Below are positions 1 through 59,102 of a stretch of 64,000 nucleotides of DNA, piece after piece. The number at the start of each line of letters is the position of its first letter. The stretch's first letter is position 1. Source of the DNA: Macrocystis pyrifera (taxonomy: Eukaryota; Sar; Phaeophyceae; Laminariales; Laminariaceae); assembly GCA_031763025.1 (NCBI GenBank), contig JASSKH010000011.1:558001-622000 (forward strand). The letters are read 5' to 3'. A program made the position numbers and the translations under genes. The notes under the pieces were generated by a model, which saw only the letters and a list, made by a program, of their open reading frames with translations, was not told where the DNA came from and did not search any database.

Positions 1-1111
1 CCAAGTCTTCCCAAAGACGCGTCCCTCGTCGTTCTCACTGTCCTCGTTGCCGACAAACCCAGGCTCAGGCTACAGGCTACAGGCTACAGTCTCAGTGACA
101 CCTGTCCGAGGGCGTCTGTTATCATATCAATCTTATCACGCGTGTGATACGGTACACCGTACATGACATAACCGAGTACACACGGTATGACCCAACGACC
201 TACCAGGTTTCGTAGCGGGCACCTCTAGAGTGTAGCCGAATGTACTCCGTATGCTCACGAAGCACGTTACGTTGACACACTCCCGTCCAAGTCCCCTTTT
301 CTTTCCATTTCTACCTTGACATTCGTAAGGTGTTACCTGAGCTGTATGTAGGACACCGCGAATTGCGCCCTCGGTAGGCTGCCCCCTACCAGGTACACTG
401 CACAGGAACTACTGTACTGGTAGTACATTGAGGCCAAAAGAGGCATTGACGAACCCAAACAACAAAACACCTGTCTCCTGCAACACATGTTGTCCTCGTA
501 CTCCACAGCGCCGGCAGTAACACACCTGTGCTTGGGCGCTGCCCATGCGAGACCGTGTGATGTCTGCTCGTGTGTTTCGCGGCGTCTGCCCTTAGCCCTC
601 GGGCACATTGTTTCCCTGAGGTCCCAGTGGCAAGGAGCGCTATACCTCGTGTCCTATACCTCGTGTCGTATACCTCGTTCGCCCCCAGAATGAAAAAACG
701 GCGTTGACATTTTTTTTAACTGGATTAAAAATCAATCGCACTGGCATACCGTATGACACTTAAGGTAACACAATCCGTGGGATTATTTTCGGAGCCGATT
801 TTATCCAAACCATGTCTTGAGGGCTAGGGCGCACGCACACTCCGAAAATGGCGGCTTTTAGAAGATTTCGTCGTTTGCACTGGCCCCGTAGGTGAAAAAA
901 GCGACTATGAAATTCGTCGGAGGGGTTGTGTTGTCTTAAGTGCTATACGGTATGACGAAAACATTAAAGCAAAATAAAAATGCATTGCGAAGGTGTTGGC
1001 TACTCGCAGTACCCCAGCCTCAGTTGAAGAATCCTGTCAGCCGGCAACAACATTTTGCGCACAACGAATGTCCCCCATGAAGTGTCCACACAATAAGTCG
1101 AATCAATCCAT
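1..1111. other. Left edge, no recognisable gene
   Basis: No open frame here resembles a known family. The stretch probably belongs to the intron (or further upstream introns) preceding the first visible L2HGDH exon, whose FAD-binding N-terminal exons are not in the window. A TACCAGGTA 9-mer lies at 387-395. Confidence 0.4.
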
Positions 1112-1333
1112 TCAATTCATTCGACGCGTTGTCATCCATTTCCAAGAAACTCCGCCGCACAAGCGGTTCTTAGTAGGACGCAGCTCACCCTCCACGCGAC
1201 TCGCGCAACGCCTCACGGCGCTTCGCGTTTGGTGCAAGAAAGGTCTGCCTGCTCGGTGAAAGCCCGACGTGCTCCGTCCCGCCATCTTAAGGATGCGAGG
1301 ATCTATGGTCATACGACTACAGCCATGCACGAC
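1112..1333 (+). repeat. Dispersed repeat family R1, copy a
   Basis: This is a roughly 220-bp copy of a family that also occurs at 1993, 8037, 8586, 38603, 39187, 45401 and 46700. The conserved core reads GTCTGCCTGGTCGGTGAAA, then a block containing CTCCGTCCC, and the family end is GACTACGGCCATGCATGA, which abuts unrelated and often C- or G-rich sequence. It has no coding capacity. This copy sits in an intron just upstream of the first visible L2HGDH exon. It is probably a non-autonomous element; its class is not known. Confidence 0.8.
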
Positions 1334-1378
1334 ATTGGTAACCCCCTCCCTGCCTTGCCATGGCCCCGTTATTTTCAG

Positions 1379-8813: not shown

Positions 8814-10100
8814 TACACCTTCCGCCCCCCAGGCGCGCTTCAGGACGGCGTCTTGTGTCCAATCTGGTGGTGTCGGAAAGCGGAGCCTCATCTCTCCCCT
8901 CCGTGCGCGCGCGTTCAGACGCCATCTCCATTTCCATCTGGCAGTGCGGTTGGCGAATTCTGTGCGCTCTCGTCGTTTTAGTTCCTGCTTGCTGCTTTTT
9001 TTTGTAAATAAAAAATCCTTTTGTGGGCGGTTGCTTGGTTTGGTGTGGCAGTACCGCTGTAGCCGTGGCTAGCTTGCTTCTGATAGAGAGGCCACGCAAC
9101 CAGTGTGGACGTATTTCCATCTACAAAATTGATACCTGGTATACAAAATATGCTGCGAGATTGACGATTTCGTCGAAACTCATCTCCGTAAGCTGCGTAT
9201 GATGCTTCGATCTCTATCGGTAAGTATCAGGCTGATCCATGAAACACAGACTCAAGTTTACAATTTCGGGTCTGCGAATCACTTTGCATGTAGCCCATTG
9301 GGGCCTGCGTACCTCCACCGGGATACCAAGTGAGAACGGCACCATTTTTCAACACTTGGCATTGCCTCTAGTTACATGGTTTTTCACGGTCCAAGCGAAA
9401 CACCCCCCGAGTTGGCTTGCAACCTCTTCTCCCTCCCCGGAGACTGTGTGCCGGCGCAGGCGCATAATATCCCTCAAGTTCCCGTGCAGCCTCTTCTCCC
9501 CTTCCCGACATGCGGACCCTTGTAAACTATGCACGTTGACTGTTGTCGTGCTCTGTTGACACCGATCACGCTTACTTGGTTGAAGGTCGAGACCCGAACA
9601 CGCGATAGGCAATTAGTCGGTCGAAGAAGACCGAAATACCCTGAAGATTAAAGGAGATGCCTTGCAGAATCTGTCAGTTGCCGGTTCTCGTATTATTAGT
9701 AATAGTTAGAAGGGCGGTTGTTGAGCAATTGAGGAGTGGAACGCCTGTGGGAGGTGCTTGCATCACCGAACGTTACAGAATCATGGAACCTTACTTCAGC
9801 TTCCGCAAAGTTATCAGCAAAGATGCGCAACACGTGTGCAACACATGCGCATACTTTCAACTGGTCAGTGTCACGTACTCAACACGTACGCATACGTTCG
9901 GCTGGTCCGTACCATATATACAAGGACGTACGCAATACTACTGGATTTTTCCTGTCAATAGTTTAAATGCGTTGGACCCACGAGTTCTACTCGTACACGC
10001 ATTTCCTTCTTGCATATCGAAAGTATCTACAATGGCATGTATCGTAAATATGAATACCTTCAATTGACGATACAACCAATTTCGATCAATATGCTGTTTT
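8814..10100. other. Intergenic, nothing recognised
   Basis: No convincing exon, RNA gene or repeat family. A TACCTGGTA 9-mer is at 9133-9141. Confidence 0.4.
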
Positions 10101-10502: not shown

Positions 10503-11118
10503 TCGAGGTCCCCTAGCAATCTGGGAGAAGGGATCTTTAGGTTGGTAGGCTGTTCAGGTATTTTGGTTCCTGTTGGCCTAACCCTGACCCCAAACCGCAG
10601 CCAAAACGGGCCAAAACTGGCCATAAACGCGGCTGCGCCGCGTTTGCATCGAACCAGGAAATTTCTCAATTGCAGACGACAATTCCGAAGTGCAGACCGC
10701 GCTACGCAATTTTCAAGTCAAAAACACCCCTAAAGATCCCTTCTCCCAGATTGCGAAACCTACTCTGTTCGTATGAATACAAGTACGAGAAGGCGCTTCT
10801 ATTGAGTAGGTTTCGCAATCTGGGAGAAGGGATCTTTAGGGGTGTTTTTGACTTGAAAATTGCGTAGCGCGGTCTGCACTTCGGAATTGTCGTCTGCAAT
10901 TGAGAAATTTCCTGGTTCGATGCAAACGCGGCGCAGCCGCGTTTATGACCAGTTTTGGCCCGTTTTGGCTGCGGTTTGGGGTCAGGGTTAGGGTTAGGGT
11001 TAGAGTTAGGGGTTGGGTTAGGTCCTCGCCCGTACCTTGATCCCAACATGAACCAAAATACCTGAACAGCCTACCAACCTAAAGATCCCTTCTCCCAGAT
11101 TGCTAGGGGACCTCTGAG
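10503..11118. mobile_element. Head-to-head pair of one MITE family (long inverted repeat)
   Basis: Two inverted copies (10503-10775 and about 10802-11118) are separated by about 25-40 bp. Each copy also has its own terminal inverted repeats of about 25 bp, GCAATCTGGGAGAAGGGATC followed by TTTAGG. Shared interior: the CGCGGCTGCGCCGCG palindrome and GGCCAAAACTGG-like repeats. The right copy keeps a short run of TTAGGG-type units (10984-11015) absent from the left copy. No coding capacity. A third, diverged copy is at 35595-35905. Confidence 0.85.
10984..11015. repeat. Interstitial telomere-like TTAGGG units
   Basis: Three to four TTAGGG or near-TTAGGG units lie within the right-hand MITE copy, matched by GGTTCGGG/GGTTAGGG variants in the 35.7-kb copy. 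The units are therefore part of the element, not evidence of a telomere. Confidence 0.7.
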
Positions 11119-11180
11119 GTACAAACGAGGATACCAGGTACGAGTCAAGCGTTGCTTACATAATCTGAAGCCATTTTATT

Positions 11181-16706: not shown

Positions 16707-16815
16707 TATTACGGGGGTACATAGTTAACGGGACCAAATTTTGTTAGTAAAAATATCTAAATATATAGGTTTTTATGTACACCATAGGTCCTATTAACTA
16801 TGGACCCCCGTAATA
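16707..16815. mobile_element. 109-bp hairpin MITE
   Basis: 29-bp terminal inverted repeats (16707-16735 and 16787-16815) begin TATTACGGGGGTACATAGTT and differ at about three positions. A 51-bp AT-rich centre lies between them. It sits against the 3' end of the gypsy relic. Flanking GCTAA occurs on both sides (16697-16701 and 16816-16820), but the left one is not directly adjacent, so a target duplication is not established. Confidence 0.75.
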
Positions 16816-20162: not shown

Positions 20163-20515
20163 CCGGCGTCCCCGTTGTCTTAGTAGGTGGTGGGCGTGCC
20201 TACTAAGATCAATTTCGTGGGTTCAAGCCTCACCGAGTGCATACTCGTAAGGACTTTTTCTTGCATAAAATAATGATTATTAATAGCGGAAAGCGCGAAA
20301 GCGTGAGTTAGCTATTTCGATGAAAATCGACGAGCAGTGGGAATGTTGAACCCTATGCACCACAAAAAAAAAGGCACGTATCGGGGGGGAGAAAGGACGA
20401 CACCTGTGACCACGGCTTGTCCAGGAGAAGACCGCTGAGGGTAATACCTCCTACCTGGTACGAGTTAAGCTGGAAAGTGCAAGTGATGCTTGAAAAAATA
20501 AAAAAAAAAACAAAT
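20163..20515 (+). mobile_element. SINE copy 1 (tRNA-like head)
   Basis: Similar over about 300 bp to 51338-51640. The head has GTAGGTGG (box-A-like), a stretch GTGCCTACTAAGATCAATTT, and GGGTTCAAGCCTC (box-B-like). The body has the family blocks GGACTTTTTCTTGCATAAAA, GCGGAAAGCGCGA and CTGAGGGTAATACCTCCT, and the tail is A-rich. The T-stem does not pair well, so this is not a functional tRNA. The copy carries an extra CCTGGTA absent from the other copy. Confidence 0.75.
20452..20460. other. TACCTGGTA micro-insertion in SINE
   Basis: This copy reads CCTCCTACCTGGTACGAGTT while the second SINE copy (near 51575) reads CCTCCTGACGAGTT. Apart from one G, removing CCTGGTA restores the second copy. Confidence 0.7.
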
Positions 20516-35905: not shown

Positions 35906-37499
35906 CGTATGTTCTGTCTCTAATGGTCTGTCGATCGCTTTGTTAGCGTCGTATATTTCGTCTCCCTGATTTCAGAAAATAAATAAATACCTGCTCAATA
36001 TTATGTCTTGCAAGCTGTATACCTACTGATCCACGACCGCCTGGACTCTACATGACGTTATGATAGCATGCTTCGTAAAAGGAACGTGTCTTTCCGTACG
36101 TAGGGACAGTGCACGCTTCCGGCTTCCATCGTCACTCGGAACCCGAGCCAGGAGCCGTTGTCTTTTCTTAGAGGCGAGGGGAGACATTCTGCGATATACA
36201 GATATCGGCAGACTGCTTTCCCGTATACACAACCGCCGTGTGGACCAGGCAAACCACAACCTATTGGTGGCTGTTGGGGGACGGGGTGTCCTGCTCCCGC
36301 CGCGCTATCATACTGCTGTACTGGCATACCACCCTGTCCTGTAATATAGTGACCGTGTGTAACAGTGAGGCGCGCGAGCCTTTTGTTCTTGGTTTCCCAA
36401 GGGAAAAAAAAAAAAAAAAACAGACGTTCAGCTTGAGCCAAACCCCGCCTGCTGGGGTGCCGTCTGTGCCGGTGCCGACTGGTCTCTCTCGACACTCGCA
36501 CCAACTCCAACTGTGACTTCACAAAAAAAAGACAAGCAACCTGAGAGCAGCGCTCGAATGCATTTCATCGAGGGAAATAACAATAACAATATACAATAGA
36601 CTGAAATACCAGGTATTCTCGAGGTAACCGACCAAATACGGAAAATGGAAAAGGAAATAAGACAAAAAACGACCAATAATACTGTAGTTGTTGGTTGTTG
36701 TCTTATGGACACCACCGAGAGACACGTCGCCGTGCACACTGAACAAAAATACAGAGCACAGGAAACCGGAAAAAATGAAAAAGGTACCATACGAGTATGT
36801 GGCGTGAGGTACGGCGACGACCACTACCATCACCACCACCGTTACCACTACCACCATCACCACGCTTTGCGTATAGGTCCGCCCCCTCTCCCTTTCTGGC
36901 CTTGGCTCGTCGCTCCTTGCGCTACCCCTGTCCTCGGCCGACGTGTGTGACGCCTTCAAAATGAGAAACTCGAACCCGCTCGCAATAAATTACGTACTGG
37001 TCGATAACAAGAGTGCTTGCCCCCGGCATCCTCTATGTACTCAACGCGTACTCGTACCCAGGCCATCGAGTGGCCTCAACATGAGCCAGAGCACTGAACC
37101 ACGTAACGTCTTGGATTAGTTCTTTCGTGTGCGAGGCATACGTTTGCTGAGGTTATGATACTCACTTGAATATGCAGTACTATAGGGGCTTTATACCTCA
37201 CCCAACAAACGCTGATTTCCAGAAAAGCTTAAACTGCAATCCGATAAGAAAAATAATGTCCTATTAAATAGGTATACCACGAACCATACTGGAAAAAAAA
37301 ACGCATGGCATGCCAACGACGTTTGATTAAGGGGCCCGGTTAGTCCTAGTAACAGTCTGGTCAAAAGCTGTCTCCACTAACTATCTGAGCACGCATCGTG
37401 CCTGTGCCTGTCTGCAATATAAAGCAGGATCACAACGCCCATGCATGAATCCAACATGGACCGATCGTCTCAATTTCGCCCATCCGTTAGCGCATGCCG
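35906..37499. other. Intergenic; low-complexity and duplicated pieces only
   Basis: Contains copies of 33.4- and 34.1-kb blocks (36366-36560), a poly-A run (36404-36420), a CACCAC-rich tract (36815-36862) and a TACCAGGTA at 36607-36615. No gene recognised. Confidence 0.4.
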
Positions 37500-40400
37500 T
37501 CAAGGCGTTGAGTAGACACTGAGGGCGTAGACGCCACCACATATGTGATCAGCACCTCCTGAGCAGGGATAGGAACATAAGCCATTCGTGATTTCGCCGT
37601 AAACGCCGAAGTCGTCGCCGCCGCACCAGCACTGCTCGAGAGCGGCGAAACATTGCGCCATACACGTTGGGATAGGGGAGAAGACGTCAGGCTACGCAAC
37701 CCGTAAATAAACATCTACTGGCACAAGAACGACCCCTTCACAAACTCTATAAACAACAGTGACACAAAGCACCACGTAACTATCGGACAGCACGCAGAAC
37801 GCCAAGTATGTATGACAGATAGGACGTCATATCTGAGAATACGGCATGTTGAAGGGATTTGGAAAATGACGTAGTGGGGGCGCGGCTGCGGGTACAAGGT
37901 GGCAAAGTTTCGCGGCAGTTTTTGTACAGTACGGTGGCAGTCAGCGCTTGTCAGATATCGGATAAATCGTAAAAGCGCCTTCAGTACCTGGCACCAAGTG
38001 ATTTCGCCATGCAAGGCGTGCAACAAGTCACAACATTTTTTTTCGGACTTTACCGCAAACTTCCCTGGACTTGTTCATTGTGTCGGGATAAAATCTAAAG
38101 ATTAAAGTGACGCTTACAGCAACGGCCTCTACCGTGTGATTGAGGGATCATTCAAATTAGCGTCCGCGTTCCAATGGTTGAATGCAAGGAGTCGCATGGT
38201 ACGGGTGCAACATCATCTCAGTCGTACTTGCAGGCGCTCAAGCTGCACGGAGACGGTCGAAAGCGCCAACCTTTTCCGTTGTTTCCCCCGCTATTTCGAG
38301 GTCCTAAAAGGCGTTAACCTCTTCTTGTTAGGAGTCGCACTCTCGCTTTGGGGACACGTTACTTCGAATTAGACGTACATATGCGGTTATGTACAGGGCA
38401 GCAGTTGCAGGGTCAACACCGCGCATATTTAACCCTGCTACATTTGAGACAAAAATAACCCCTCACCTCTTCGGAGAATTGAGTGCCGGCGTAAGCGTGC
38501 CCGTTCCCGGCACAGTGCGAAATGCACACCTTCCGGATCGGGAACAAAATACACAGATTTGAACAGACGGTGGGGTGGGGTTGGGGCGGGGGGGGGGGGG
38601 GGGGTGTACTCATTACCGTGCATGGCCGTAGTCGTAGTGCCATAGACCTTCGCATCCCTGCAATGCCGGGACAGGACGCGTCTGATTTTTACAGACCAGG
38701 CAGACATTGCTTGCACCAAGCGCGAAGCGCAGTGAGGTGTCCGGCGAGTCGCATGAAGGGTCAGCTGCATCCTACTAAGAACCGCTTTGGAGGCGGATTT
38801 TCTTTCATATGTATGATAGCATCAATGAATTGATTTAACTTCTGGTGTGGCCACTTCCAGAGACAGAAATGGGTTTACTATGTACCTGGTAACTGCTTCG
38901 TGGGTGTCTCACCATATACACACTACGTGATACCATCATCCCCCTTGTGCGGAGTAAAGGCTCTCCCCGCACAAAATGATTTAACTTGACCGCCAGCCGC
39001 GGTAACCGCCGAAAGAAACAAAACAAAAACGGTACCCTGGCTGTCTAGCTCACGCAGTGAGAGGCGTGTTTTACAGCGTCGTCGCCAACCGACGCCAACC
39101 CAACCTATATATATATATATATACCAGGTATATAACCGATGTCAACCCAACCTGTATACACCAGGTATAAAATATAGGGGGGGAAGTACTCGATAGGAGA
39201 GATGTACTCGATCTCATGCATGGCCGTAGTCGAATGATCATACACCCTCGCATCCCTACAATGCCGGGACGGAGCATGCCGGGTTTTCACCGACCAGGCA
39301 GACATTGCTTGCACCAAGCGCGAAGCGCCGTGAGGTGTCCGGCGAGTCGCATGAAGGGTGAGCTGCATCCTACTAAGAATCGCTTGTGAAGCAGACTTGC
39401 ATACGGATGACAGCTTCAATGAGTTAGTTTAATTTCCGGTGTTGCCACTTCCAGAGACAGCAATGGGAGTACTATGTAACTGCCTTACCTTGAACACTAC
39501 GTGATACGATCAATTCCCTTGTGCAGAGTAAAGGATCTTTACTTCGCACAAATGATCTAACTAGACGACTAGCTGTGGGCGACCGCCAAAAAAAAACAAA
39601 ACAAAAAAAACGGTACCCTGGATGTCTAGCTCACGTAGTGAGCGGCATGTTTTACAGTGTCGTTGCCAACCGACGCCAACCCAACCCATATATAATATAT
39701 ATATAATATAGGGGGGGCGGGGGGAAGGGCCTGGTGTGCAGCTGGCTTACGAAACGTTTACATAGTGTAAGCTCACAGATGCATCTCCGGCAGAGGCACC
39801 ACAACAACGTTGTAGGCCATAGGTCATGATATAATTCTCTCGATGGTTACGTTGCCTGAACCGTACTTCCCATAAACGACCATTTCTCGATAAACTTCGG
39901 TCGCCCACTTAGCATTACCTTACCACATCCTTGTTTTCGGACGTACGATATCTTCATGACCGTACCACAATGTTCCCCTCACCTCGTTGGTCATGTCTTC
40001 TGACACGTACATCTTTTCCATGTCCATTGCCCGAGCGGCTCCGTCGTCCGCGTAACAGCCAATGTATCCCGTACCGACGTCTTCCATCTTGTACGCGGTG
40101 ATCTTGTCGATCCCACCGCAGAACTCGCTGTTCGTGGTGCCCTCGCATGCCATGTCACACTCGTCCAGTGCTAGCTCCTCCGCATTCTTCGTCAGGTCGG
40201 GATCTACGGCGCACCAGCACTGTTGTATATGTTGCCAAACATGGTTGGTCGGCTCTCGTTAGTTCAACGTCAACGACAACTTCTGGTGGAGAGGGTGATT
40301 GATGCCAACAGCCGCCGGCCGCGTGCTACGGTACTGTAGGCATATAAGGCTCCCGATGTTTAGGAGCCCCCTCACTTGAGGAACTCCATGCACTACCCAA

Positions 40401-43400
40401 ACACTGACTGACTGAGCACAAAATTGAAATAAACAATCCCATCGTCTAGGTATGCCAGATACAATACCATAATATCGTTCCAACAATATTTTGTGGCTTT
40501 TCAGTTCAGGAGCTCCGTCGGCCATACCAATAGATGTTATGGCCGAAACAATATACATGCACCTCTATTGTAATCGTATTACGCGTCGCTTCCATTTATG
40601 CTTCCCGTGTTAGCGGGGAGAGGGGGAGCTACGTGGACGTTTACAGGCAGCGGTATGTGGGGTTTCTTAGGAAGTGCTTTGGGGCGGCAGTGTGTCGTGG
40701 GGGGAGCGGAGGGGTTTGGTTCAAGCTGCACGGATTTTGTAGCTGAGGTAGTCAGAGTATGCGTCTCGGAACCCCATCGGACGACAGCACAGACAAAACA
40801 TAGACTAAATTATATATATATCACCGTCTCTCGGCGCTTTGTCATAAATACTACCTGGTATATTCGAACGGCATATTCAACAATCTGATCGGCCTATACT
40901 GACTCAGGACGGCACGAGGTGTGGCTCGGGCTGATAGTGGTGTATGAGTATATACAGCACTGAAGTAGTTACCCTTGACCGCTCCTTGCATTTGTCCCAC
41001 AACGAATCGACGGTGAGTACTTATACCTTGTGGAACTTATTTTATGATGGTACCCACTGATACCTACTGTAGTACTATTAGTACAGAATAGTGTACTTAA
41101 TATTACCCAATGGTACCTGGTATATACCTGTTGTACTCTACTGTAGTAGTACCTAAATTCTACAATAGCTCCACCAGAACATCATCGATCAAAACTCAAC
41201 TATTTAGTACTTGAACACTCTGGAGTGGGATGGACAACCTCACATGTCCATCTGGTTCAACGTATGATAGCGTTCCGAAAAGTCTCAAGAAAAAACGACC
41301 TGGATCCGGGCAAGGGCAATCGCCCCAGCACATATATACACCGAACATAACGACTCACCTCCTCGGCGTATTGGGTGCCGAAGTGGGTGTTGATGCCGTC
41401 GACGCATAGCTTGTGGCAGATCTGCAGGACAATAGCATAGACGCATCACGCGCGGATGGTGAAGCCTGACGCTAAGGGCGTAACGTTGACATTCTAACCA
41501 AACATTATATTTTAACATGATGTGCATGCTTTCAGTGGGATATGGTCATTCGTACCGCGTGTACAGGTGTAATCTGCAGGGCGGATAAACGACTGACACG
41601 CCAACCACGGAACCGAACCTGCCTGATATGGCCTGCGGTTTTCATGAAATGTGAATTACCTAGACCGCTCTAGCATGCAACCAACACCACCTGCTACATG
41701 GTTGTAAATATTATCGCGTGCGCGTGAAGTCTACTGCATGTACTTGAGACATCATTCTCATATTTGGTGTTGATTGACTGTTTTGCTGCAATTGGTTGCG
41801 GTGTGGTGGTCTCGTCATGGCGCTAGCTCATCACTGGCACAATGTAACGACTCTAACGCCATTCCATTATATTGATGGTGATGTTATCACATTATTTCAC
41901 TTCCCTGAAATCCTGCCTGTGGTCACCAAAACAGGTTGTGACAAAAATGCATCTCGACACGAGGAGACAAACAAGTACGAAGCAGTGCGCACGGCTGTTC
42001 CAGTGCATACGGGAAACGATGCTAACAAGAGGTGGTATACCCATCCCGTATCACTTGAAACCGAACAACACCAGGAACGTATCCATGGTATTTTTTGTGC
42101 ATGAGAAAAAACTATTACAGTACGCGAAATGTGTTGATCATTTGGGATTTGGACATTCAAGGCTGGATTTGTTTTGCATTTAGGAATTTACAGGTAAGCA
42201 TGTATGCTTGACGACGAACGTCACCCGACCTCCTACACATACGCTAGGGTAAAAGGGCCTCTGCCCAACGTTATCATCACAATACGCCGCCAATCGTAGC
42301 CAACACACTAGGAACTTCTGCCGTGTACTGTAGTACAGGAAGGTTTCCGTCGGTAGTGACATCCCAGATAGTCTATAACGTGTCCTTATATATCATGTCG
42401 TTATTTCCTTGTAGCGCCATATGTGAAGTAGAACCTCAGGTCGATTCCACGCTAGGTCGGTGTACGGCACGGAAGGGCACTTATTGTGTTGTTGTGGAAC
42501 ATGGCATGTAATGCAGAAGAAGCGAGTGCGTTCTTACAGACATGATTTTGAAAAAAATCAACTCTGTTAGATATTTGCAGCATAGTTATAATTTTCAATA
42601 TGTCGCCTCCATCTAGGGGTCGTGATAGAGCTTAGTACGTGCTACAGCAGCAGTGAGTACCCACCTAGTCTCCGTTCCGCACCAGCGTCTTCTGATACAG
42701 GTAGCTACTGTAGTAAATGCAACATCGTATGGTGTGTGGCAAAACAGAATATAGCCTTATACGACACATATCTATATACTTCAGTGTTGCCAAAGCACGT
42801 TGTTGGGTGATAAACAACATGTTTCGTGCTGTACATGTCAAGCATTGTACATATAAATTCTGCTTCATTCGGGCTGTAAGCTGATACGGGTTCAAAATGT
42901 TCGTGAACGGTCGTACACTACAGTATAACGATAAGAGACTGTAGTAATACGTCATTGTCAGGGCCATGAGACGAGCAGGGTCATGTCCACGTCTGTAGTA
43001 ATTTTGATCGCGGATGGTTTGGCGCATCTTAGTCGCCCCTTATCGTAATCGCTCTAATTTCGTCTGCTGCTGACTGTGTCCTCTTTAGCAACTAACGTAA
43101 ACAACACTAGCCTAGGGCCCCTTGTAGATTCTTTTATTTATCACATGAGTTTCCTGACAGTGATTTAAAACATTTGCCTAACGAATCGTGTCTATTTAAG
43201 CACCAGATATTCGGTTCATCTTCGCCTGTGCGGGATCAGCACCGCGTTGGTACGCACGCAATGTCGGGTACTGGACCGGTTTTGACGTCTCAGCCACACT
43301 GGGTGTGCAGTAGAATTACACTGTACACCGTCGGCCCTGAACCTGTGGCACATGCTTACGCACGACCAGGAGAACATTTTTTATATATGTATCCCTTTCA

Positions 43401-46400: not shown

Positions 46401-49400
46401 GTCTCGACGCACACGCGACGCCTAGCCACGAAAACGGTGACCTTGCAACCCACCCTCTACCCGCCACCACCCGCTGACACCCGGGACGGTGCGGCGCTCG
46501 CCCGCGGTGCCGTGCTCGGAGTACACGCACGCACACGAAACGAAATACGAAAAAAGGAAAAATGGACTGAGAGTGCCCAGAAAAATGGAGGAAACAAAGA
46601 ACCGTTGGAAAGGTCCGGCGAGTAATCAAAGGCGATGTCGAAGTGTGAGCTCTGAGAGGCCAGAGATGGACCAACCGTACACGCTCAGAGAGTGAGATAC
46701 CTGTAAGGATTTATATGGTAAGGCACCCAAGAGGCAGTTTCATAGTACCTGGTGCTCCCAATGCTGTCTCTAGAAGTGGCTACACCGGAATTTAAATTGA
46801 CTCACTGAAGCTGTTGTCTATATGCAAGTCCGCCTCGCAAGCGGTCCTTGGTAGAATGTAGCTCACCCTTCATGCGACTCGACGAACAACTCACGGCGCT
46901 TCGTGCTTGGTGCAAGCAGTGTCTGCCTGGTCGGTGAAAACCCGACATGCTCCGTCCCGGCATTGTAAGGATGCGAGGTTCTATGGTCATACGACTACGG
47001 CCGAGCATGAGATCGAGTACATTTCTCTTATCGATTCCCCGTCCCCCCTCCCTGATCCGTCTGTCTCTGTCCCCTTTGTGCTGGTTGTGTCGTCCTTGAC
47101 CCACCAACTGGACACAGGACTGCTCGTTTTGTTTGTTACAAGCTCTTTGCCTCTACCCTCTTCTTGTCTTGTAGCCTCCCGCCTGGCCTTCTTTTAACTT
47201 CCTGAATTATGTTGATCTACCAGCTCGATATATCACAGGGCTGATCGTACCAGCAAACAGCAACCTTGTCCTCGAGACTCGGCCTGCGCCCTGAGCGCGT
47301 GTCTGCTACCCTTTTGTTAAATGTTATTTTTCCCTTTCTGTTTCAATTATTTAGGGTGTTGTTCATTTTTTTTTCTCCGTTTCTTCTCTTCGAGAGTACA
47401 TAGAATACCACGAATGTATTCCCGGTGTTATTTGGTTGCAAGTGATACGGCATGTGATACCACGGCTCGTGAGTACCGGTACTCTCACGGACTGGTATAC
47501 TATCGTGCGCAGTATTTCGTACTTGTGCGTTTTCTCCCCCATCGAGATGCGTTTCTGTTGCAGCCTGGTTTTGTGACCACGGGCAGGATTGCAAGGAAGA
47601 TAGCTAGTGTGAGAACACAATCATCATCATAGTGTTTTCCTCCACTCATCTATCCCCCTCACTATGGACACATGCAAACAGCCGCCTTTCTGCTATTTTT
47701 GTTGTATGTGTGCACCACGTTGTTGTATCGTGCTTGGAACTTACGGATGTAGTCTAGATACGTGCAGGTCTTACCTCGTCGGCACCATTTTCGACCTCAA
47801 ACGAGAGCCGCGATGTTCTCGTTGTGCTTTCATCGTCATAACTTTGTATGTCCAGATCAAGTTCGTACTCTCCGAAAGGACAGCAGATGAGAAGGTTCAG
47901 CTTTACCCTGCGAAAGAGTGCCAAATTGCATGCGGCCAGCAGAGACGATACAACAAGCGACGACGGAATAGAATGCACGACAGCCATTAGTTCAACATGT
48001 GCTTGACGAAGCAGGTCCATGCACCAGTTCGATGTATGCGTGGCAATGGGGTACGGCACTATGGGCCATCGGGTGGGGCAATATTTTGATTTTTTGGTGA
48101 ACGGCACACTCGAGAGGCGACAACAACACCAAGCCAGTAAAGGCATCTATCCGCGTCGTCGACCGGACTTCGGACAGGCTACACAGCTGAAATGTTCCTG
48201 TGGATTGTGGGCCAACGTCTCGGGCCCGATTTAGGTATTGCGATCGGATTGGGGTACTACAGTTAGTATTGCACGCCCTTATGCTAAAGCTGTGAGCTGG
48301 CGGACTCTCAATCGTCAACAGTTTAGAATTTACCTGATTTCACAACTTTGTGCGGGCGACAGAGTTCTGCGTTTGTGGCTCGGGTTGTGTTCGGCTTCAG
48401 CCATTTAGTTGGTACAGTTCATCCAAAAAAGAACAACTGCTGTTACAGTGTTTTCTCCAAAGATCCGAGAATTTCCAGAGAAGTAGTATTAATAGTCGAA
48501 GGGGGTGAAGTGACTAAACCCAGAGATGAACGCCTAGCCCCCACGAAAGGATGCGCGGCCGATGCAACTCAACTCCAGTAGCTTCCGCCGTAACCTTGTC
48601 TGCTACCCTCGGCGATATACTGCTCCAGAAGAGCACCGGTCAGAACAGCGCTTACGAGGACTCACCAACAAGGACCGCAGGCCGCGTGGTCCAACGGTCA
48701 GTCTGTGCACGAACTTCGGCCGAGTGTGAGCTTGGCATGTACGACCAGCATAAAGCAGGCTAGAACTCTGGGAAACACTGCAAGCCTTGGTGTGAGAACA
48801 GGCGCTTGTTGTATCGTGCCGAAATGACCCTGGAGTTGTGACGGCTCTCCCAGAACTGGTATATGCACGTCACGAGACTGACACTACTACTGTTGTAGCG
48901 GTGAAATCCAGCCAACGTACAGGTTTACGGTGCCATCGGTGGGAGGCCTATCGGGGGCATCTGGCGATGACCCGTCGTAAAACACTTCCCACGAAGCTAG
49001 CTCGGACTCATCGATCGCCTTCCCGCAGGGCCCAGCCATCTGCCTGCGAAACGTCGTGGGGGTGTTGACAGGCGGACAGGATGGGGTACGGTACTACTAT
49101 GGTTGGACGTGGTTTGATCATAAGTTTAATCTTGTTCCGCGGCGCGGATTAAAGAATGCTGGGTACTAACAGACTGAATACAAAAAAGGGCTCTTCATTT
49201 CAGGTGCTTCACAAGAGATACCTGGTATTGCGCAACCAAGTGTACTTATTTTGTCGGCTTCGACAATACCTATATAACAAGCACAAGTTTTATCGGCCTC
49301 CTCGTCCCCGGCACTAGTAGACGCGACAGGGACTGTCAAGACTGTCACGGCGCACGTACCTCCAACGCATGGTGAACTTTGGGTGGTCGTAGCTGTCTAG

Positions 49401-49438: not shown

Positions 49439-49935
49439 CTGCACGCAGTAAGTAGTCAGAACAGTATGTTAGGCTTATTCTTATCGGAACGCTTTTTTTC
49501 CCCAGACTTTCCAATGTCTGGAAATAATTCGAGGTATACATCAAGATACGTAGGCGTTCTGTCACTATTCGTGAAATTCCACAGAAGCTAAGAAGATCAG
49601 GTTTGTTAGGGTTAGGATAATCAGGAAAATCTGGATAAATAGCTAGCTCTCCGATAAGAATAATAGCTAGCTCACATGCTTGGAAAAATAATCAGGAAAA
49701 TCTGGAAAAAAGAAAAATTGAGCGAAAATAACATGGAATTATGGAAAAAAGCTCTCCGATAAGAATAACCCTTACACTCGCATACACGTTGCTTGTGAGC
49801 CAGAATTCGGTACTGTAGTGGTAATGGAATCTCGTATGTTTCATAACCACATCAAATAGAAACCACCCCTACTGCCTGTAGAAGGGCAGAGCTTGCAAGA
49901 CTCTGTGGGTGGTGTTGTCCCTATGGTCCCTGTGG
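49439..49935. other. Upstream of the first visible WSC-gene exon
   Basis: AT-rich. GAAAATCTGGA and CTCTCCGATAAGAATAA are each present twice (49620-49770), a degenerate tandem repeat. TACCTGGTA at 49219-49227 lies just inside the adjacent intron. No further exon was found. Confidence 0.4.
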
Positions 49936-50333
49936 CAACCGGCGTAAAAGTGCCCGCTCAGGCGAACTTTGAGAACCTGCCCGCAAAAAAAAACTCGTGC
50001 TTCACAGGAGAAACCCCACCCAATTTGGAATTGGCGCGGAGCGCGGCGAATTAGCACACACAAGCACCACAGCGAACCAGCACACATAAGCAAATACACC
50101 GTCGCTACTGCTGCTGTACACACAACACCCAGCAGCAGAGGCTACAGTGGGGCACGCAGCCACACCGCTGGCGCTCATAGCATCCCATTTAGCAGTTTGT
50201 TGGCAGTTGGACGTTGTTTCAAGACGATCTCTCGCGGGACCAAAATGAGACACTCAGCAAGCAGCAGCCAGCAGCACAGCAGTACGAGTACGTATCACTA
50301 AGTTCGCCTGAGCGGGCACTTTTACGCCGGTTG
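49936..50333. mobile_element. 398-bp MITE with perfect 33-bp terminal inverted repeats
   Basis: Left end 49936-49968 begins CAACCGGCGTAAAAGTGCCC; right end 50301-50333 is its exact reverse complement. The interior has no coding capacity and is rich in CAGCAG/CACAAGCACC. The target duplication is not obvious (G/T flanks). An inverted, truncated partner lies 0.5 kb away. Confidence 0.9.
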
Positions 50334-50388
50334 TAGATGCTCGTACATATGATAGATGTAACAGACCGGGTATACTTCTTGTTTGACA

Positions 50389-50737
50389 ATGCGTGCGTTT
50401 AACTCTAAATTCAGTATAATAATGACCTGGAAATGCTTTTTTTCCTTCTCAGGTCTTTTGGTCTGCTTTTTTGAAAAAATGCGTGCGTTTAACACTAAAT
50501 TCAGTGTTATAATGACTCCGAAATGCTTATTTTCCTTCAGGTCTTGTCTGCTTTTTTTTTAGAGTGCGTGCGTTTAACTCTAAATTCAGTATAATAATGA
50601 CCTGGAAATGCTTGTTTTCCTTCTCAGGTCTTTTGGTCTGCTTTTTGAAAAAATGCGTGCGTTTAACACTAAATTCAGTATAATAATGACCTCGAAATGT
50701 TTTTTTTCCTAATCAGTCTTGGTCTGCTTTTTTCACT
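50389..50737. repeat. Four-unit tandem array with A-B-A-B order
   Basis: Units 50389-50478, 50479-50563, 50564-50652 and 50653-50737. All start TGCGTGCGTTTAAC and end in GGTCTGCTTTTTT. Units 1 and 3 share TAACTCTAAATTCAG and GACCTGGAAATGCT; units 2 and 4 share TAACACTAAATTCAG. The array therefore arose by duplicating a dimer of about 175 bp. Confidence 0.88.
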
Positions 50738-50845
50738 GCGGGTACTTATAACTGCTGCAGCAGGGCTACACAATACCTGGTACTGCGTTACCTGCGTTGA
50801 CCACAGCTCCTTAACACGACCAACTAGCCTGCTGCGCTGTACCAG

Positions 50846-51216
50846 CTGCTAGTGATACGTACTCGTACTGCTGTGCTGCTGGCTGCTGCTTGCTGAGTGT
50901 CTCATTTTGGTCCCGCGAGAGATCGTCTTGAAACAACGTCCAACTGCCAACAAACTGCTAAATGGGATGCTATGAGTGCCAGCGGTGTGGCTGCGTGCCC
51001 ACTGTAGCCTCTGCTGCTGGGTGTTGTGTGTACAGCAGCAGTAGCGACGGTGTATTTGCTTGTGTGTGCTGGTTCGCTGTGGTGCTTGTGTGTGCTGATT
51101 CGCTCCGCGCTCCGCGCCAATTCCAAATCGGGTAGGGTTTAACCTGTGAAGCACGAGTTTTTTTTTTGCGGGCAGGTTCTCAAAGTTCGCCTGAGCGGGC
51201 ACTTTTACGCCGGTTG
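50846..51216. mobile_element. Inverted, truncated partner of the 398-bp MITE
   Basis: Reverse complement of 49936-50323. The right end (51184-51216) keeps the complete 33-bp terminal repeat, and the left terminal repeat is missing (similarity stops at TAGTGATACG near 50851). Together with the full copy it forms a long inverted repeat around the 88-bp array. Confidence 0.85.
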
Positions 51217-51337
51217 CCCCTGTGGTCGTCGCCTAAAGGCGGAACAAGCGCACCCCCTCCCCAGATCACGGAATATTTTCGGGCAACGGAGACTGCACAG
51301 ATACGCATGATACGTGTCAACCCTTTTAGTACTGCGT

Positions 51338-51640
51338 GCCGGCGTCTCCTGTGGCTTGGTAGGTGGTCCGCGTGCCTATAAAGATCAATTTCGTAGGTTC
51401 GAGTCTCATCGAGTGCATGCTCGTAGGGACTTTTTCTTGCATAAAACATTGATTATACGCGTAGCGGAAAGCGCGAGAGCGCGAGTTAGCTACATTCGAT
51501 GAAATAACGTACCGGGGGGGAAAAGGGAGGACACCTGTGGCCAAGTCTTGTCCAGAAGATCGCTGAGGGTAAAACCTCCTGACGAGTTAGGTTGGAAAGT
51601 AAAAGTGAATGATAAAAAACAAAACCAAATCCCGCTTTGG
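51338..51640 (+). mobile_element. SINE copy 2 (tRNA-like head)
   Basis: Head: GGTAGGTGGTCCGCG, TATAAAGATCAATTTCG, GGTTCGAGTCTCATC (box-B-like). Body: GGGACTTTTTCTTGCATAAAA-like block, GTAGCGGAAAGCGCGAGAGC, CACCTGTGGCCAAG, CGCTGAGGGTAAAACCTCC. A-rich tail. Same order as copy 1 at 20163. Confidence 0.75.
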
Positions 51641-51656: not shown

Positions 51657-51726
51657 TACCAGGTACTGTTTGGTGTATAGTGGATGGAATACATACACAT
51701 CATATCCCAAAACACCGTACCAGGTA
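51657..51726. other. Two TACCAGGTA motifs beside the TAC tract
   Basis: Exact motifs at 51657-51665 and 51718-51726. The second ends three bases before the (TAC)n tract. Confidence 0.8.
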
Positions 51727-53360: not shown

Positions 53361-53361
53361 G

Positions 53362-54455
53362 AGGGACCGCAGAGCTGAGCTGAGCAGGCAGCGCCGCGCA
53401 TCCGCCGTGGGTGGTGTCCAAGGGAACGGGGGGAGGGGCAACAAGAGGAGTAGCAGAAAACCCGACCAAGGGAATGCGGAGAGGGGGGGGAACAGGAGTA
53501 GAAGGGAAACTGCAGTGGACGAAAGTAGGAAGGAGATGGCAGATAGGGTAGCCAGGTACCGGGCAGACTAAGAAGTAGAACATGCCTATACTACTCGTAC
53601 CACCAACAACTGGTGCAGCTGGTTCGAACGTGGTCTTCCTTTGTCTTCCTGTTGTTTTCGTTTATTTTTATTTCATTTTATTGTCTTCTTTGCGGTGACC
53701 CTATGTGATTTTCATTTCTCTTCCTTTCTCCGATTGATAAGCCTTATTGGAGGAGTCGTGTGGCGTGGGTGGATGACGAGCCTGCTGTGCTTGTTTCGTA
53801 CTGTCTGACGCCGAGGGGCCGGGCATAGTTGACGAACGCTGGACGATGGTGGCAGACAGGGTAGCAAGGTACCAGGCGGGCCAGTAGGGAGACCCTGGCT
53901 GTGCTACTCGTACCATAAACTGCTGCCGCTACCTGGAGCATGCCTTGTGCTTTGTTTGGTTTGCCTGTTATTTTTCCCTTGGTTCTTAGTCTTACTCTGT
54001 TGACGACTATTATAGTGGTGTTTTCTCCTTTTTCTTTTTTTTCCAGCTCGTTCTTTTCAAGTGTCTGCCACGTCCCCTACGGGGGGGTACGATGGTTTGT
54101 TGCTATACTGAAGTATATACATATACAAGGTATATATATATATATTTTTTTTTTTTTGTTTATTTTCTCTTTCGAATTGTCTTTGTTTTTGTTTTTGTTT
54201 TTTCTCTTCGTTTCGTTTTTGTTTCTCTAGGTCATGGAATCGGTATGTCGGGCCTGTCGTACGCAGTATGGTGACATGGCATTGCATTGCATACGTGGCA
54301 ACGTAGTATCTGTGGCGTAGCTTTGTGACCACAGAACTTGTATCTCTCTAGGATTGAAGAATCGGCACGGACACTGGTTGTGCTGGATGTCGACGGGTAG
54401 AAAGAACGGTTTGATGTGAAGAAAACAACAACAACAACAACAACAACAACAGACG
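53362..54455 (+). mobile_element. RTE-like LINE 3' end, copy 1
   Basis: 5'-truncated copy. It begins in the last coding part (LSRQRRASAVGGVQGNGG, frame ending about 53571), continues through a 3' UTR shared with copy 2 (GTAGAACATGCCTATACTAC, GGTTCGAACGTGGTCTTCC, CCGAGGGGCCGGGCATAGTT, CTGGTTGTGCTGGATGTCG) and ends in a tail of about nine AAC units (54422-54451). Direction and tail type agree with RTE-clade elements. Confidence 0.82.
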
Positions 54456-54935: not shown

Positions 54936-54943
54936 AGGACCGC

Positions 54944-55007
54944 AGTCCCGTTTTGGGGGACGAAACACTTGCAATTAAAGCAATTTGTCCCCAAAATAGG
55001 ACTGACT
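54944..55007. repeat. Small imperfect hairpin
   Basis: GCAGTCCCGTTTTGGGGGAC and its near reverse complement GTCCCCAAAATAGGACTG flank an 18-bp loop. Could be a decayed foldback MITE. Confidence 0.6.
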
Positions 55008-55264: not shown

Positions 55265-56010
55265 AGCAAGGGTACTAAATCGAGTCAATTTCCGAAACTA
55301 AGAGCGCACACAAGTTGATGACAGTTACCAATGTCTTGGTGCGCGAGTTTCTATTAATGGCGACATCTGTATTTAATGTATTCTTCAAATGAGTGTGAGA
55401 GCGTATGGTGTCCACAACATGATGACGTCGGTTCAAATTACCACATACATACAGAACATGACATACCTCGTATATCGTGGGATGAGTGCAAAATATCCTC
55501 GAAATGGCTATCGATGGATAGCTTGTACAATCTATATGGCCGGCAATGGCCATCGATAGACATCTCGTACCATCGATTGTGGCCGGCAACGGCCATCGAT
55601 AGACATATCGCACAATCTATTGTGGTCGACAATGGCCGTCGATAGACCTCTGGCACAATCTATTGTGGCCCGCAATGGCCATCGGTAGACCTCTGGCACA
55701 ATCTATTGTGGTCACCAATGGCTATCGATAGACATCTCGCACAATCTATCGTGGCCGGCAATGACCATCGATCGACAAGTCGCACATTCTATTGTGGCCT
55801 GCAATGGCCATCGATGGACAAAGTTCACCATCTATTGTGTTAGACAAAGTCTATCGATCGACAATATCACCACTCTATTGTCGCCGACAATATCTATCGA
55901 CAGATACCTTCCGCAATCTATTGTCGCAGATAATGTACATCGATAGATTCCCCTCCTCGTCTATTGTCGAAGCAGCAGACTATTGTTGTGTCCATTGTCC
56001 AGAGTGTGGT
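55265..56010 (+). repeat. Segmental duplication S, copy 1, with hairpin satellite
   Basis: About 745 bp duplicated at 61948-62670 in the same orientation. The first 230 bp are unique to the duplicon (GCGCGAGTTTCTATTA, CATGATGACGTCGGTTCA, CGTGGGATGAGTGCAAA) and the rest is the 43-bp satellite. Confidence 0.85.
55497..55975 (+). repeat. 43-bp hairpin-forming satellite, block 1
   Basis: About eleven units with the pattern ATTGT-6 nt-CAATGGCCATCGATAGAC followed by a spacer such as CTCTGGCACAATCT. Each unit can fold: CTATTG-TGGCC pairs with GGCCA-T-CGATAG around GGCAAT. Right-hand units diverge but keep ATTGT...CAAT. Confidence 0.85.
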
Positions 56011-56542
56011 ACATACAGCGTTTTTGCCTTAACGCTGTTAAATTGCTCAATTTCATTCATGAAATGGGTGACCACAGCTGTCAATCGATTTCGTTTTTGA
56101 AAACGCCGTACGAACCAACCGTTCAAAATATATGAACAAGCAGAGACCCGGGCTCCAAGAATATAGCTGGCACCGCAAATCGCGCCAAGTCTTGGGTTTA
56201 CGTCACCGACAAAAAACGAAATACGTCCTACCGCCAAATATCAAACCAAATACCGCCGTGTTGCGTTTCCGGCGAAAAAATACCGCCGTAAATCGTATTC
56301 GCAGTCTACCCCCGATAAACACCGTTACGTTTTGTAATTAGCGTCTACCGCCCAAAAAATGCTAGCGATATTCTGATATTACCGTCTACCGCCGGTATTC
56401 TTGCCTAACCGCCGGAAAAATACCGCAATATTTTGTATTTACCGCCTACACACCACCAAACAAAGGCGTTGTTATAACCGTCAAAAAACGCAAAACAACC
56501 TACGGCTGAAACAACTATTCCGCCGTATTATAACACCGTGCC

Positions 56543-56947
56543 GCCTGAGTCAGCTTCACACTGCGTGATCACCCTTGCACCCCGAAAAAGGTGGCCTCAG
56601 ACGTTTGGATCGGAAAAATTCATACAGTGAACGAGACGTGCACTGCCGTATACGTGGCGCGCGTCGGGACTCCAATATATGTCACTACATATCATCCTGG
56701 TAGCACGCAAGGGACGCGTGTTCTACGATTGATTGATTATGCACGTGATACCGATGTGCTCACAGTTGTTCCCGTCGTCCGCGGGGTTGATGGTCTTCGT
56801 GGGCAGCATTGCGTCAGCGCCCAGCCCCAGGAGCGACATACCCAGTACGAACTTCTTCCGGTAGAGTCCGGTCCCCATCTTCGAAGAGCGAAAACAGACC
56901 TTGGGATTTCTAACATGATTAGAATATGTATATGTGTATATATGTAG
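56543..56947 (+). other. Open frame of about 134 codons, unrecognised
   Basis: Opens after a TGA near 56541 and reads SFTLRDHPCTPKKVASDVWI, then DTDVLTVVPVVRGVDGLRGQ. The start is unclear (no early ATG) and no family is recognised. It may be an exon or a fragment of an element protein. The preceding 450 bp (56100-56540) holds degenerate TACCGCC-rich repeats. Confidence 0.3.
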
Positions 56948-57375
56948 TAGACGAAAATTCTTGGCCTTGGAGTAGTGATCGTGGTGGTCGTTGGCTCGTT
57001 TGCGCCTTCAGCGGGAAGTACCGTGAGTCAGCGAGTCCGCGAGTAAACCTTGGGTGTTTTGAAACGTACTACTGCCTGCCGACGACGTACGTATGTATGT
57101 GGTAGCGAATGATGACCTCGTCCGAACACGCTGCTACGCTGATGTTGGCTCGGTTTCCTGGAGCTTTATGGTGAATGGTGGCTCGGTGGTGGTGTGTTGT
57201 TGATTTTAGGGTCGGATGAATAATGGCGTAGAATGAGAACGTCCGAGGGTGAGCGAAAGGGCATTTTTGATAACCCGTACTCCTACAAAAAGACTTGTAG
57301 CGCTTCCAAAACATCCATTCCACAACATAGATACCTTGTACCAGATAATATACCCTGGTTGTTGTGAGAATATAC

Positions 57376-57384
57376 TACCTGGTA
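57376..57384. other. TACCTGGTA motif
   Basis: Exact copy of the recurring 9-mer, just upstream of LINE copy 2; no empty paralogous site is available here. Confidence 0.7.
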
Positions 57385-57445
57385 TCTCCGGAGACACATA
57401 AGGCATGATGTATACGAGGTTAATATTAATATGAATACGAGTAGT

Positions 57446-59102
57446 ATGATGTATAATATCACGCCATCCTCATAACGTGGAATTGTTGGGACGCGTCCAC
57501 AGCAGCCGAACCGTGGACCCTCAGAGCGGAACACTTTGCCAAGCTTCGAACGGCTCACCACCAACTCCTGTTGCGAGTCATTGGTTTCCAGCGCCGACTT
57601 CGTACTGACCATACCACCCTCTCGTACGCGAAAGCCCTCAAGATGACACGTTGCGAGAGCATCGAAACGACCATTCGCAAACGGCGGCTCTTCTTAGCGG
57701 GGGGGGTGGCACGGCAAAGCAAGGAGCGATTACCCAGTCGGGTAACGTTCGGGACTATAGCTGGTGGGGAGAACCCGAGACCTGGCGGACACTTCAAGAC
57801 TTGGCATAGATGCATAGTCGAAGACCTTAGGGAGTTTCGAGCCACCGAAGAGTCAACGGAACTTGCCCCCTTGGTGTTTGGAGTTGAGACCGCGCTGTGT
57901 TCCACTGCTGCCAAAAAAGCGGGGAAATGGTACCGGGGCATCCTCGTAGCAGCCGAACGGTTCATGGTGAGGTGGCACGAGGCTGATGCCGAGCTGAGTA
58001 GGCAGCACCGCGCATCCGCCGTGGGTGGTGTCCAAGGGAATGGGGGGAGGGGGGGCAACACGAGGAGTGGCAGTAAACCCGACCAAGGGAATGCGGAGAG
58101 GGGGAGGAACAGGACAGGAGTAGAAGGGAAACTGCGGTGGACGAAAGTAGGAAGGAGATGGCAGACAGGGTAGCAAGGTACCGGGCAGACTAGGAAGTAG
58201 AACATGCCTGTACTACTCGTGCCACCAACAACTGGTGCAGCTGGTTCGAACGTGATCTTCCTTTGTCTTCCTTTTGTTTTTTTTTTTTCATTATTATTTT
58301 TTTCTTATTTTTTGTTTTTTTTTTCTTGCGCTGATCCTCTGTGGTTTTCATTGTCTTTCTTTCTCTTCCTTTCTCCGATTGGTAAGCCTTATTGAAGGAG
58401 TCATGTGGCCTGGGTGGATGACGAGCCTGCTTTGCTTGTTTCGTATTGTCTGACGCCGAGGGGCCGGGCATAGTTGATGAACGCTAGACGGAGGCGGCAG
58501 ACAGGGTAGCAAGGTACCAGACGGACTAGCAGGGAGAGCCTGGCTGTGCTACTCGTACCATAAACTGCTGCCGCTACCTAGAGGACGCTTTGTGCTTTGG
58601 TTTGCCTGTTATTTTTCCCTTGGTTCTTGGTCATACTCTGTTTACGACGAGTATTAACAATGGTGTTCTTCTTTTTTCTTCTTTTTTCCAGCTCGTTCGT
58701 TTCAAGTGTCTGCCACACCTCCTGCGCGGGGGGCACGACGTTTTTTTTCTTCTATCCTTTTTTCCTGTTTCTTGTTCTCTTTCGATTGTTTTTTTTTTTT
58801 TGTTCTGTTTCTTTCTTCTTTGTTTCATTTCGTTTCTCTACTTCATGGAATGTGTATGTTGTGCCTGTCGTATCCAGTATGGTGACATGGCACTGCATTC
58901 CTCACTCTGTGCTTATTTTACTGCATACCAGGTACGTGGCAACGTAGTATCTCTGTGGCGTAGCTTTGTGACCACAGAACGTGCACTGATATCTCTCTAG
59001 GATTGAAGAACTGGCACGGACACTGGTTGTGCTGGATGTCGACGGGCAGAAACGGTTTGATGGGACAGGGGAAGAAAACAACAATAACAAGAACAACAAC
59101 AA
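57446..59102 (+). mobile_element. RTE-like LINE 3' end, copy 2, with reverse-transcriptase C-terminus
   Basis: Coding part (about 57446-58194): PWTLRAEHFAKLRTAHHQLL, RVIGFQRRLRTDHTTLSYAK, MTRCESIETTIRKRRLFLAG, RLPSRVTFGTIAGGENPRPG, KTWHRCIVEDLREFR. This is the region after the RT domain in RTE/jockey-like elements, where the order LLRVIG...RKRRL...AGxVAR...RLPxRVxFG is typical. It ends TAG at about 58192. The 3' UTR matches copy 1 and includes an internal duplication: GGCAGACAGGGTAGCAAGGT at 58161 and 58496. The tail is (AAC)n, 59076-59102. RT catalytic motifs lie upstream of the truncation. Confidence 0.85.
58926..58934. other. TACCAGGTA micro-insertion in LINE copy 2
   Basis: Copy 2 reads GCATACCAGGTACGTGGCAA; copy 1 reads GCATACGTGGCAA (TA at 54292-54293). 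The only difference across the junction is CCAGGTA. Confidence 0.9.

Follow-up and report, generated by a model that had tools for sequence, protein, structure and literature searches.

A 64,000-nucleotide stretch of the genome of the kelp Macrocystis pyrifera (contig JASSKH010000011.1, positions 558,001 to 622,000), referred to here as the window, lies within contig 191 of an assembly of 537,376,219 bp in 223 contigs. It contains interspersed, fold-back and tandem repeats, among which the nine-base motif TACCWGGTA, a CCWGG pentamer set between two TA dinucleotides, recurs at 15 sites, termed footprints below after the interpretation argued for here. Seven of these sites carry CCAGG and eight CCTGG, while 100 shuffles of the window gave a mean of 0.32 sites and a maximum of two; no other TA-framed pentamer occurs more than three times. 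An earlier, sequence-only reading of the window had listed the 15 sites, each at its exact coordinates, and had proposed that they were left by a transposon inserting at TA.

The excess extends to the whole genome, in which TACCWGGTA is found 121,279 times (60,665 forward and 60,614 reverse), or once per 4.4 kb, compared with 2,421 occurrences (1,239 and 1,182) of the control, the reversed motif pattern searched on both strands; the count is thus not at the chance level that the earlier reading had named as the outcome contradicting it. Word and paralogue statistics were drawn from 264-287 kb of the 537 Mb. A 264-kb set comprised the window and loci L011-L030, which, apart from the window, were picked regardless of their footprint content; a 287-kb set also included eight smaller loci, with 14 of its 73 sites lying in loci that had been fetched around sites. 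L011-L020 all derive from one 169-kb contig that is internally duplicated. The 264-kb set held 59 exact sites against 2.47 expected, and CCAGG was the strongest TA-framed pentamer of the 287-kb set (66 distinct contexts against 2.67 expected). Beside the 59 exact sites, one-mismatch forms were also in excess (99 against 57.4 expected), which suggests that footprint formation has been a long-running process rather than a single young burst. As a TA may be re-used, double footprints are expected: the palindromic forms TACCAGGTACCTGGTA and TACCTGGTACCAGGTA occur 1,409 and 609 times genome-wide and never in the control, exceeding the rough figure of 480 estimated by hand for all forms from the TA count under uniform re-use, although some are copies within repeats. 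The inequality of these two forms (C1 loci L035 and L037) may be accounted for in part by repeat-family copying. Spacings of less than 500 bp between footprints numbered 13 against 5.2 expected in a sample that includes loci fetched for holding sites, and a recount by hand in the window and L011-L030 gave nine of 42 against 4.4, at most a hint of clustering.

Comparison of repeat copies shows that TACCWGGTA is gained at a TA and is not an ancestral motif. As the sequence-only reading had claimed, the filled copy of a long interspersed nuclear element (LINE)-like repeat at 58926 and the R1 copy at 38883 differ from their empty partners at 54292 and 39477 by exactly 7 bp at the motif, each alignment having another, longer gap close by, and its pair of short interspersed nuclear elements (20452 and about 51580) does differ by 6 bp, with the extra G described. 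Its further pair, R1 copy i at 46746 against 39470, proved to be a separate gain at the matching TA, as had been proposed, whereas the filled site reads as a decayed form rather than the exact nine-mer. In the 287-kb set, the 73 sites gave 47 spanning alignments, of which 12 were dropped for poor flanks; among the 35 kept, with filled pairs counted from both sides, the partner was exactly 7 bp shorter in 14, filled in 12, decayed at equal length in six, and shorter by 6, 8 or 10 bp in one each. The gradual decay of an ancestral motif, the other outcome that the earlier reading had named as contradicting it, was not seen. The 14 exact differences derive from four loci, L018:1686, L018:2681, L025:3101 (nine empty copies) and the window's 38883 (three), and a usable paralogue was present for just 21 of the 73 sites; exact filled and empty pairs come from five loci in all, plus the decayed 46746. 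A survey blind to the motif recorded 721 insertion events between paralogues, 46 of them of 7 bp and many of these in the L024 tandem repeat; all four 7-bp events flanked by TA on both sides were CCWGG.

Table 1. Footprints and empty partner sites in the window (positions counted from the first base of the window)
Feature	Position	Strand	Basis or context
Footprint TACCAGGTA	387..395	+	Exact match, word counts
Footprint TACCTGGTA	9133..9141	+	Exact match, word counts
Footprint TACCAGGTA	11132..11140	+	About 18 bp outside fold-back repeat 10505-11114
Footprint TACCTGGTA in short interspersed repeat	20452..20460	+	Copy 51570-51591 without footprint; 6-bp difference, TGA for TA
Footprint TACCAGGTA	36607..36615	+	Exact match, word counts
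Footprint TACCTGGTA in repeat	38883..38891	+	Copies at 39477 and in L020, L025 and L034 are 7 bp shorter there
Footprint TACCAGGTA, TA-rich stretch	39122..39130	+	Exact match, word counts
Footprint TACCTGGTA	40852..40860	+	Exact match, word counts
Footprint TACCTGGTA	41114..41122	+	Exact match, word counts
Decayed footprint TACCTGGTG	46746..46754	+	Gain distinct from that at 38883, its TA lying 7 bp away; empty partner at 39470
Footprint TACCTGGTA	49219..49227	+	Exact match, word counts
Footprint TACCTGGTA	50774..50782	+	In spacer of large fold-back element 49934-51218
Footprint TACCAGGTA	51657..51665	+	Exact match, word counts
Footprint TACCAGGTA	51718..51726	+	Edge of long (CTA)n array
Footprint TACCTGGTA	57376..57384	+	Exact match, word counts
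Footprint TACCAGGTA in LINE-like repeat	58926..58934	+	Copy 54292 has one TA and is 7 bp shorter there
Empty TA, partner of 58926	54292..54293	+	Paralogue alignment
Empty TA, partner of 38883	39477..39478	+	Paralogue alignment
Empty TA, partner of 46746	39470..39471	+	Paralogue alignment

The footprints have a preferred sequence context. In a profile read outward from the TA, pooling both flanks of 69 distinct sites of the 287-kb set, T is over-represented at +1 (0.50 against a background of 0.31) and +6 (0.48 against 0.26, p 7e-10), C is depleted at +7 (0.08, p 1e-7), and there is a weaker preference for T at +3, with the remaining positions to +20 near background. When sites were oriented to TACCAGGTA, the two sides agreed (T at +1 in 36 and 33 of 69, and at +6 in 32 and 34), and the preference therefore holds on both sides of the TA, like that of a transposase for its target; Sleeping Beauty and the ZB element are likewise described, in the passages cited, as preferring AT-rich palindromic sites (PMC7913693). 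With sites oriented to CCAGG, outward position +7 differs between the flanks, being mainly T in the left one (33 of 69) and mainly A in the right one (37 of 69), and the choice of a central A or T seems to be linked to the flanks at these 69 sites.

Elements with CCAG tips are still present in the genome. Loci L045 and L046 hold elements around Tc1-like transposase genes that have TA-CCAGTC(T/C)GACA at both ends, and L072 is a complete element of 600 bp; all three possess terminal inverted repeats (TIR), comprising TACCAGTCTGACATTTTATATA at both ends of L045 and TACCAGTCCGACAAAAAA in L046, and have TA at both element ends, fitting a TA duplication. Two Tc1-like elements (L045:240-3494 and L010/L009) are arranged as inverted dimers, whose arms match at 98.6-99.4%. 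The strict 13-mer TACCAGTCYGACA is found 36 times genome-wide against 18 in the control and, with one mismatch, 1,141 times against 690, partly through another repeat form, TACCAGTCTGCCA. On the 13-mer count the family had appeared too rare, a judgement overturned by the longer pattern TACCAGTCYGACAWWWWWYRYARGG, which with up to three mismatches has 613 matches against 20; if ends are paired, the roughly 590 above control represent at least about 300 detectable elements. The commonest tips among the best 100 of the 613 matches, ranked by mismatch, are forms of TACCAGTCTGACCATAAATATAAGG. All 36 exact tip occurrences were read, of which 27 continue into AT-rich sequence and nine do not, and 21 chosen ends align to the loose pattern ATTTATATA.GG.C..TTTG and belong to clearly divergent families.

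These ends and the footprints share a target profile. A profile trained on the footprints alone was scored on the outer flanks of 47 of about 600 extant ends. The first set, the 27 of 36 ends with AT-rich sequence after the tip, gave a z score of 4.1, and a second set, of 20 ends retrieved independently, gave 3.6, with T at +1 in 11 of 20, T at +6 in 11 of 20, and A or T at +7 in 17 of 20. For all 47 ends z was 5.45, and among 11,880 placements of the four informative columns the true one ranked 19th. By contrast, CWG, CTCG/CGAG and TTAA sites from the same sample lie off the profile, none scoring above background (z -0.9, -1.5 and -2.3). Footprints are also found close to the ends themselves, with seven in 3,711 bp (31 small pieces) against 0.83 expected, four of them in the AT-rich pieces (2,802 bp, against 0.63).

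Genes for a transposase of the same group are present. The Tc-type helix-turn-helix (HTH) profile PF01498 scores above cut-off at two places in the genome; on open reading frames (ORFs) alone its scores are below the cut-off of 31.5 (30.9 bits in L009 and 19.8 in L045). The protein matches DUF7769 and Tc3-type HTH domains, and has the motifs VMVDEKWF, QQDNAPSH and PDTNILD, read from separate pieces, 39 residues separating the aspartates of the latter two. A D-39-D spacing is also characteristic of plant mariner-like elements, which carry the label DD39D. Of the transposase, the ORFs in L042, L043 and L044 cover the DUF7769/HTH part alone; L042 and L043 contain three and five exact footprints respectively, in 3.8 kb each, and a weak inverted pair, TACCAGGTACCAGGTATGTA and TACCTGGTACCTCGTATGTA, surrounds the L042 ORF. 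These HTH-only ORFs were rejected as parents, no strong TIR being found around them. Genes of the pogo-like DDE_1 type (PF03184), found at 39 places in the genome, were similarly set aside after one locus, L047, was read and showed no CCAG-type ends. A separate inverted-repeat element of about 757 bp with the tip AGGGCCAYTCCTAACGAAC lies in L047 (2856-3613; C202:8067955-8068712), and of its 1,520 candidate copies 40 were scored, 39 of which proved to be additional copies with 97-99% identity, a recent expansion.

We consider it probable that TACCWGGTA is the excision footprint of a cut-and-paste transposon of the Tc1/mariner superfamily with CCAG tips; TACCAGTCTGACCATAAATATAAGG and TACCAGTCYGACA exemplify the tips of the likely parent families. 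The Tc1/mariner-type TA duplication with a few-base footprint that the sequence-only reading had proposed, by analogy with Sleeping Beauty, is supported by the two-sided target preference, the match to extant elements and the Tc1-like genes. Insertion of such an element at a TA, with duplication of the TA, would give TA-CCAG...CTGG-TA, and excision by the transposase would leave each flank with a short 3' tail from the element, here the four nucleotides CCAG. The tails could then pair as CAG with CAG (C:G, an A·A mismatch and G:C), and if one base were filled on each side and the mismatch resolved either way, the result would be TA-CC(A/T)GG-TA, 7 bp longer than the original TA site; a four-nucleotide CCAG overhang paired over three positions would in this way yield CCWGG. 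Were the parents mobile for long at low copy number, footprints would accumulate far beyond the surviving elements: under neutral fixation, footprints become fixed at the rate of jumps per genome per generation, such that few mobile elements and millions of generations would suffice. We infer an excision event, a four-nucleotide overhang, mismatch repair and a long-lived, low-copy history. In the sample, the main product of this scheme is found 68 times against 2.7 expected, and the one-tail product TACCAGTA 24 times against 13.5, with one insertion event; the unpaired three-nucleotide product TACCATGGTA occurs twice against 0.86, and the unpaired four-nucleotide product not at all against 0.07.

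Pairing of overhangs also explains the footprint of Sleeping Beauty, and the kelp scheme involves one more base. In both Sleeping Beauty and Frog Prince, as in kelp, a TA is targeted and duplicated and a central A or T stands between complementary bases in the footprint; theirs is C(A/T)GTA, and the review describing it gives Tc1/mariner overhangs of 2 or 3 nt in the part drawn on here (PMC3878927), whereas the kelp footprint is the 5-bp CCWGG, explained from a CCAG tip, with an overhang that would be 4 nt. The plant elements resemble the kelp ones in their footprints of TIR fragments next to TA, as well as in the D-39-D spacing: Stowaway and Osmar5 are reported to leave 1-4 bp of TIR beside TA, and Stowaway is reported to insert again at a TA that already carries a footprint (PMC1925063, as excerpted). 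Unlike in kelp, with its CCAG tip and one dominant footprint, several distinct footprints are described for rice mariner, Stowaway and Osmar5, and the rice mariner tip is CTCCCTC, with one rice mariner family able to reach thousands of copies (PMC4423477, same limitation). The Tc1-Mariner superfamily is also recorded in another brown alga, Ectocarpus, in an account whose main text uses neither 'footprint' nor 'excision' (PMC12477816). Among the listed matches in open-licence PMC papers there is no account of TACCWGGTA in kelp or of mass footprints, although an earlier description elsewhere is possible.

A number of observations weigh against an origin by excision from CCAG-tipped elements. Published Tc1/mariner footprints are given as 2-4 bp in the section cited (PMC7913693), and the dominant insert between the TAs, the 5-bp CCWGG, lies outside this range, although a 5-bp footprint fits the same excision logic if the overhang was longer. 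Two products that the four-nucleotide scheme does not predict are in excess (TACCGGTA, 22 against 8.5; TACCGTA, 53 against 33.7), and the same main product would result if three-nucleotide overhangs were joined through one A·A. Footprints outnumber detected ends by about 200 to 1, the CCAG-end model found no ends in the 264-kb set, and some ends among the matches listed are CCAC-tipped. In the profile comparison, the nine ends excluded as not AT-rich after the tip score 0.14, above the background of -0.74 if below the 0.55 of those kept; the second set includes one CTAG tip beside 19 CCAG, and its end pieces contain no footprint in 1,220 bp; the 47 extant ends agree with the footprints at +1, +6 and +7 and lack their T at +3; and a TGA class of sites scores z 1.8 on the footprint profile. 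As to the genes, the DDE_3 profile (PF13358) has no match anywhere in the genome, such that the catalytic domain is assigned from motifs alone, read in pieces; a PDB search with the 340-residue DNA-binding part returned no transposase, and a 173-residue L045 piece with DNAPSH has no Pfam match. Lastly, the single differing site in an aligned stretch of contigs C4 and C5 is not a 7-bp gap, nor an indel, and a second pair aligns over about 830 bp and falls short of the sites.

An alternative, and the form that the sequence-only reading had given its transposon, is a lost or unseen TA element ending in CCAGG...CCTGG and cut with a 5-nt stagger, whose CCAGG overhangs would pair directly to give CCWGG. 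Further classes of TA-flanked microinsertion make more than one TA transposon plausible, and a loose scan did find three weak inverted pairs starting TACCWGG with 11-12 of 16 matches (in L042, in L030 and at 49219/50782 of the window), that in L042 spanning 2,584 bp around the Tc1-like HTH ORF with 12 of 16. However, no strong element of this kind was found: a scan of the 287 kb, the window included, that required 15 of 18 inverted-repeat matches yielded none with TA-CCWGG ends, and the extant ends found read CCAGTC(T/C)GAC. TACCWGG half-sites do number 74 in the 264-kb set, where dinucleotides beside CCWGG average about 50, but they continue most often into CA or TG, both decayed forms of TA, so the surplus fits decayed footprints. 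With the target profile already matched by extant CCAG-tipped elements, this explanation is unlikely. The scarcity of elements beside 121,279 sites, the largely uniform product, and double footprints commoner than uniform re-use predicts would also suit a transposase, or another TA-specific enzyme, that adds 7 bp directly with no element inserted, for instance if a cleaved tip integrates on one side only or its integration is aborted. We know of no enzyme that makes such direct micro-insertions, whereas ordinary excision calls for no novel activity and, given long enough, a mobile element of low copy number can produce many footprints, and this route is accordingly very unlikely. That a near-palindromic motif of such high genome count, with CCWGG also being a methylation-type site, is instead a regulatory or structural sequence conserved by selection is scarcely credible, given that it is gained inside repeats otherwise without it, has the flank preference of extant elements' insertion sites and shows a one-mismatch excess as from decay. 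Euglenid nonconventional introns were dropped as an analogy because the gains lie in repeats.

Other TA-flanked microinsertions were observed alongside CCWGG. TA-CTCG-TA and TA-CGAG-TA are over-represented in the 287-kb set (39 against 10.6; at 50860, 53592, 3144 and other window positions), and include insertion events relative to paralogues; their flanks favour C at +1, so the class looks unlike the CCWGG process. TATTAATA occurs nine times in the window against 0.39 expected (2489, 5138, 12904, 19628 and five more), is followed by G in six of the nine, and at 19628 represents a 6-bp gain relative to a copy in L023. The Sleeping Beauty-type TAC(A/T)GTA is enriched about twofold in the 287-kb set (91 against 43.6), and the copy at L025:7833 represents a gain of 5 bp, the aligned partner being empty in 12 alignments. 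Among the window's larger repeats, the fold-back repeats 49934-51218 and 10505-11114 have arm segments that are 94-100% complementary, the first carrying a footprint in its spacer, and a 43-bp tandem repeat with ATCGATAGAC forms three arrays at 55460-62670. A TA-flanked inverted-repeat element of about 108 bp (TTACGGGGGTCCATAGT) is common in the sample (for example L020:2766-2874, L028:504-612 and window 16707-16815), and flanks the footprint at L025:3101, where nine aligned copies are without the footprint. The LINE protein, searched in viral contigs, had no match.

For a Tc1/mariner footprint, that of kelp is unusual in its uniformity, its 5-bp size and its excess over detected ends. It is conceivable, if doubtful as a whole, that a kelp mariner-like lineage has lived as a hit-and-run parasite, with few copies, frequent and perhaps local hops, a 4-nt stagger, and a nearly single joining outcome that the transposase might direct or that might be confined to one life-cycle stage, leaving more than 100,000 jumps on record. 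Excision footprints have been described as varied in the passages cited (PMC4423477, PMC1925063, PMC3770610), which makes past jumps hard to count. In kelp, base-precise scars are legible at a density of about one per 4.4 kb, together with target preference, age by decay and repair outcome; this could allow the jump rate, target choice and end joining of a DNA transposon to be measured over evolutionary time from sequence only, and it raises the question of how an element so mobile remains so scarce. Since seven extra bases would put a coding exon out of frame, footprints may also contribute to mutation in kelp.

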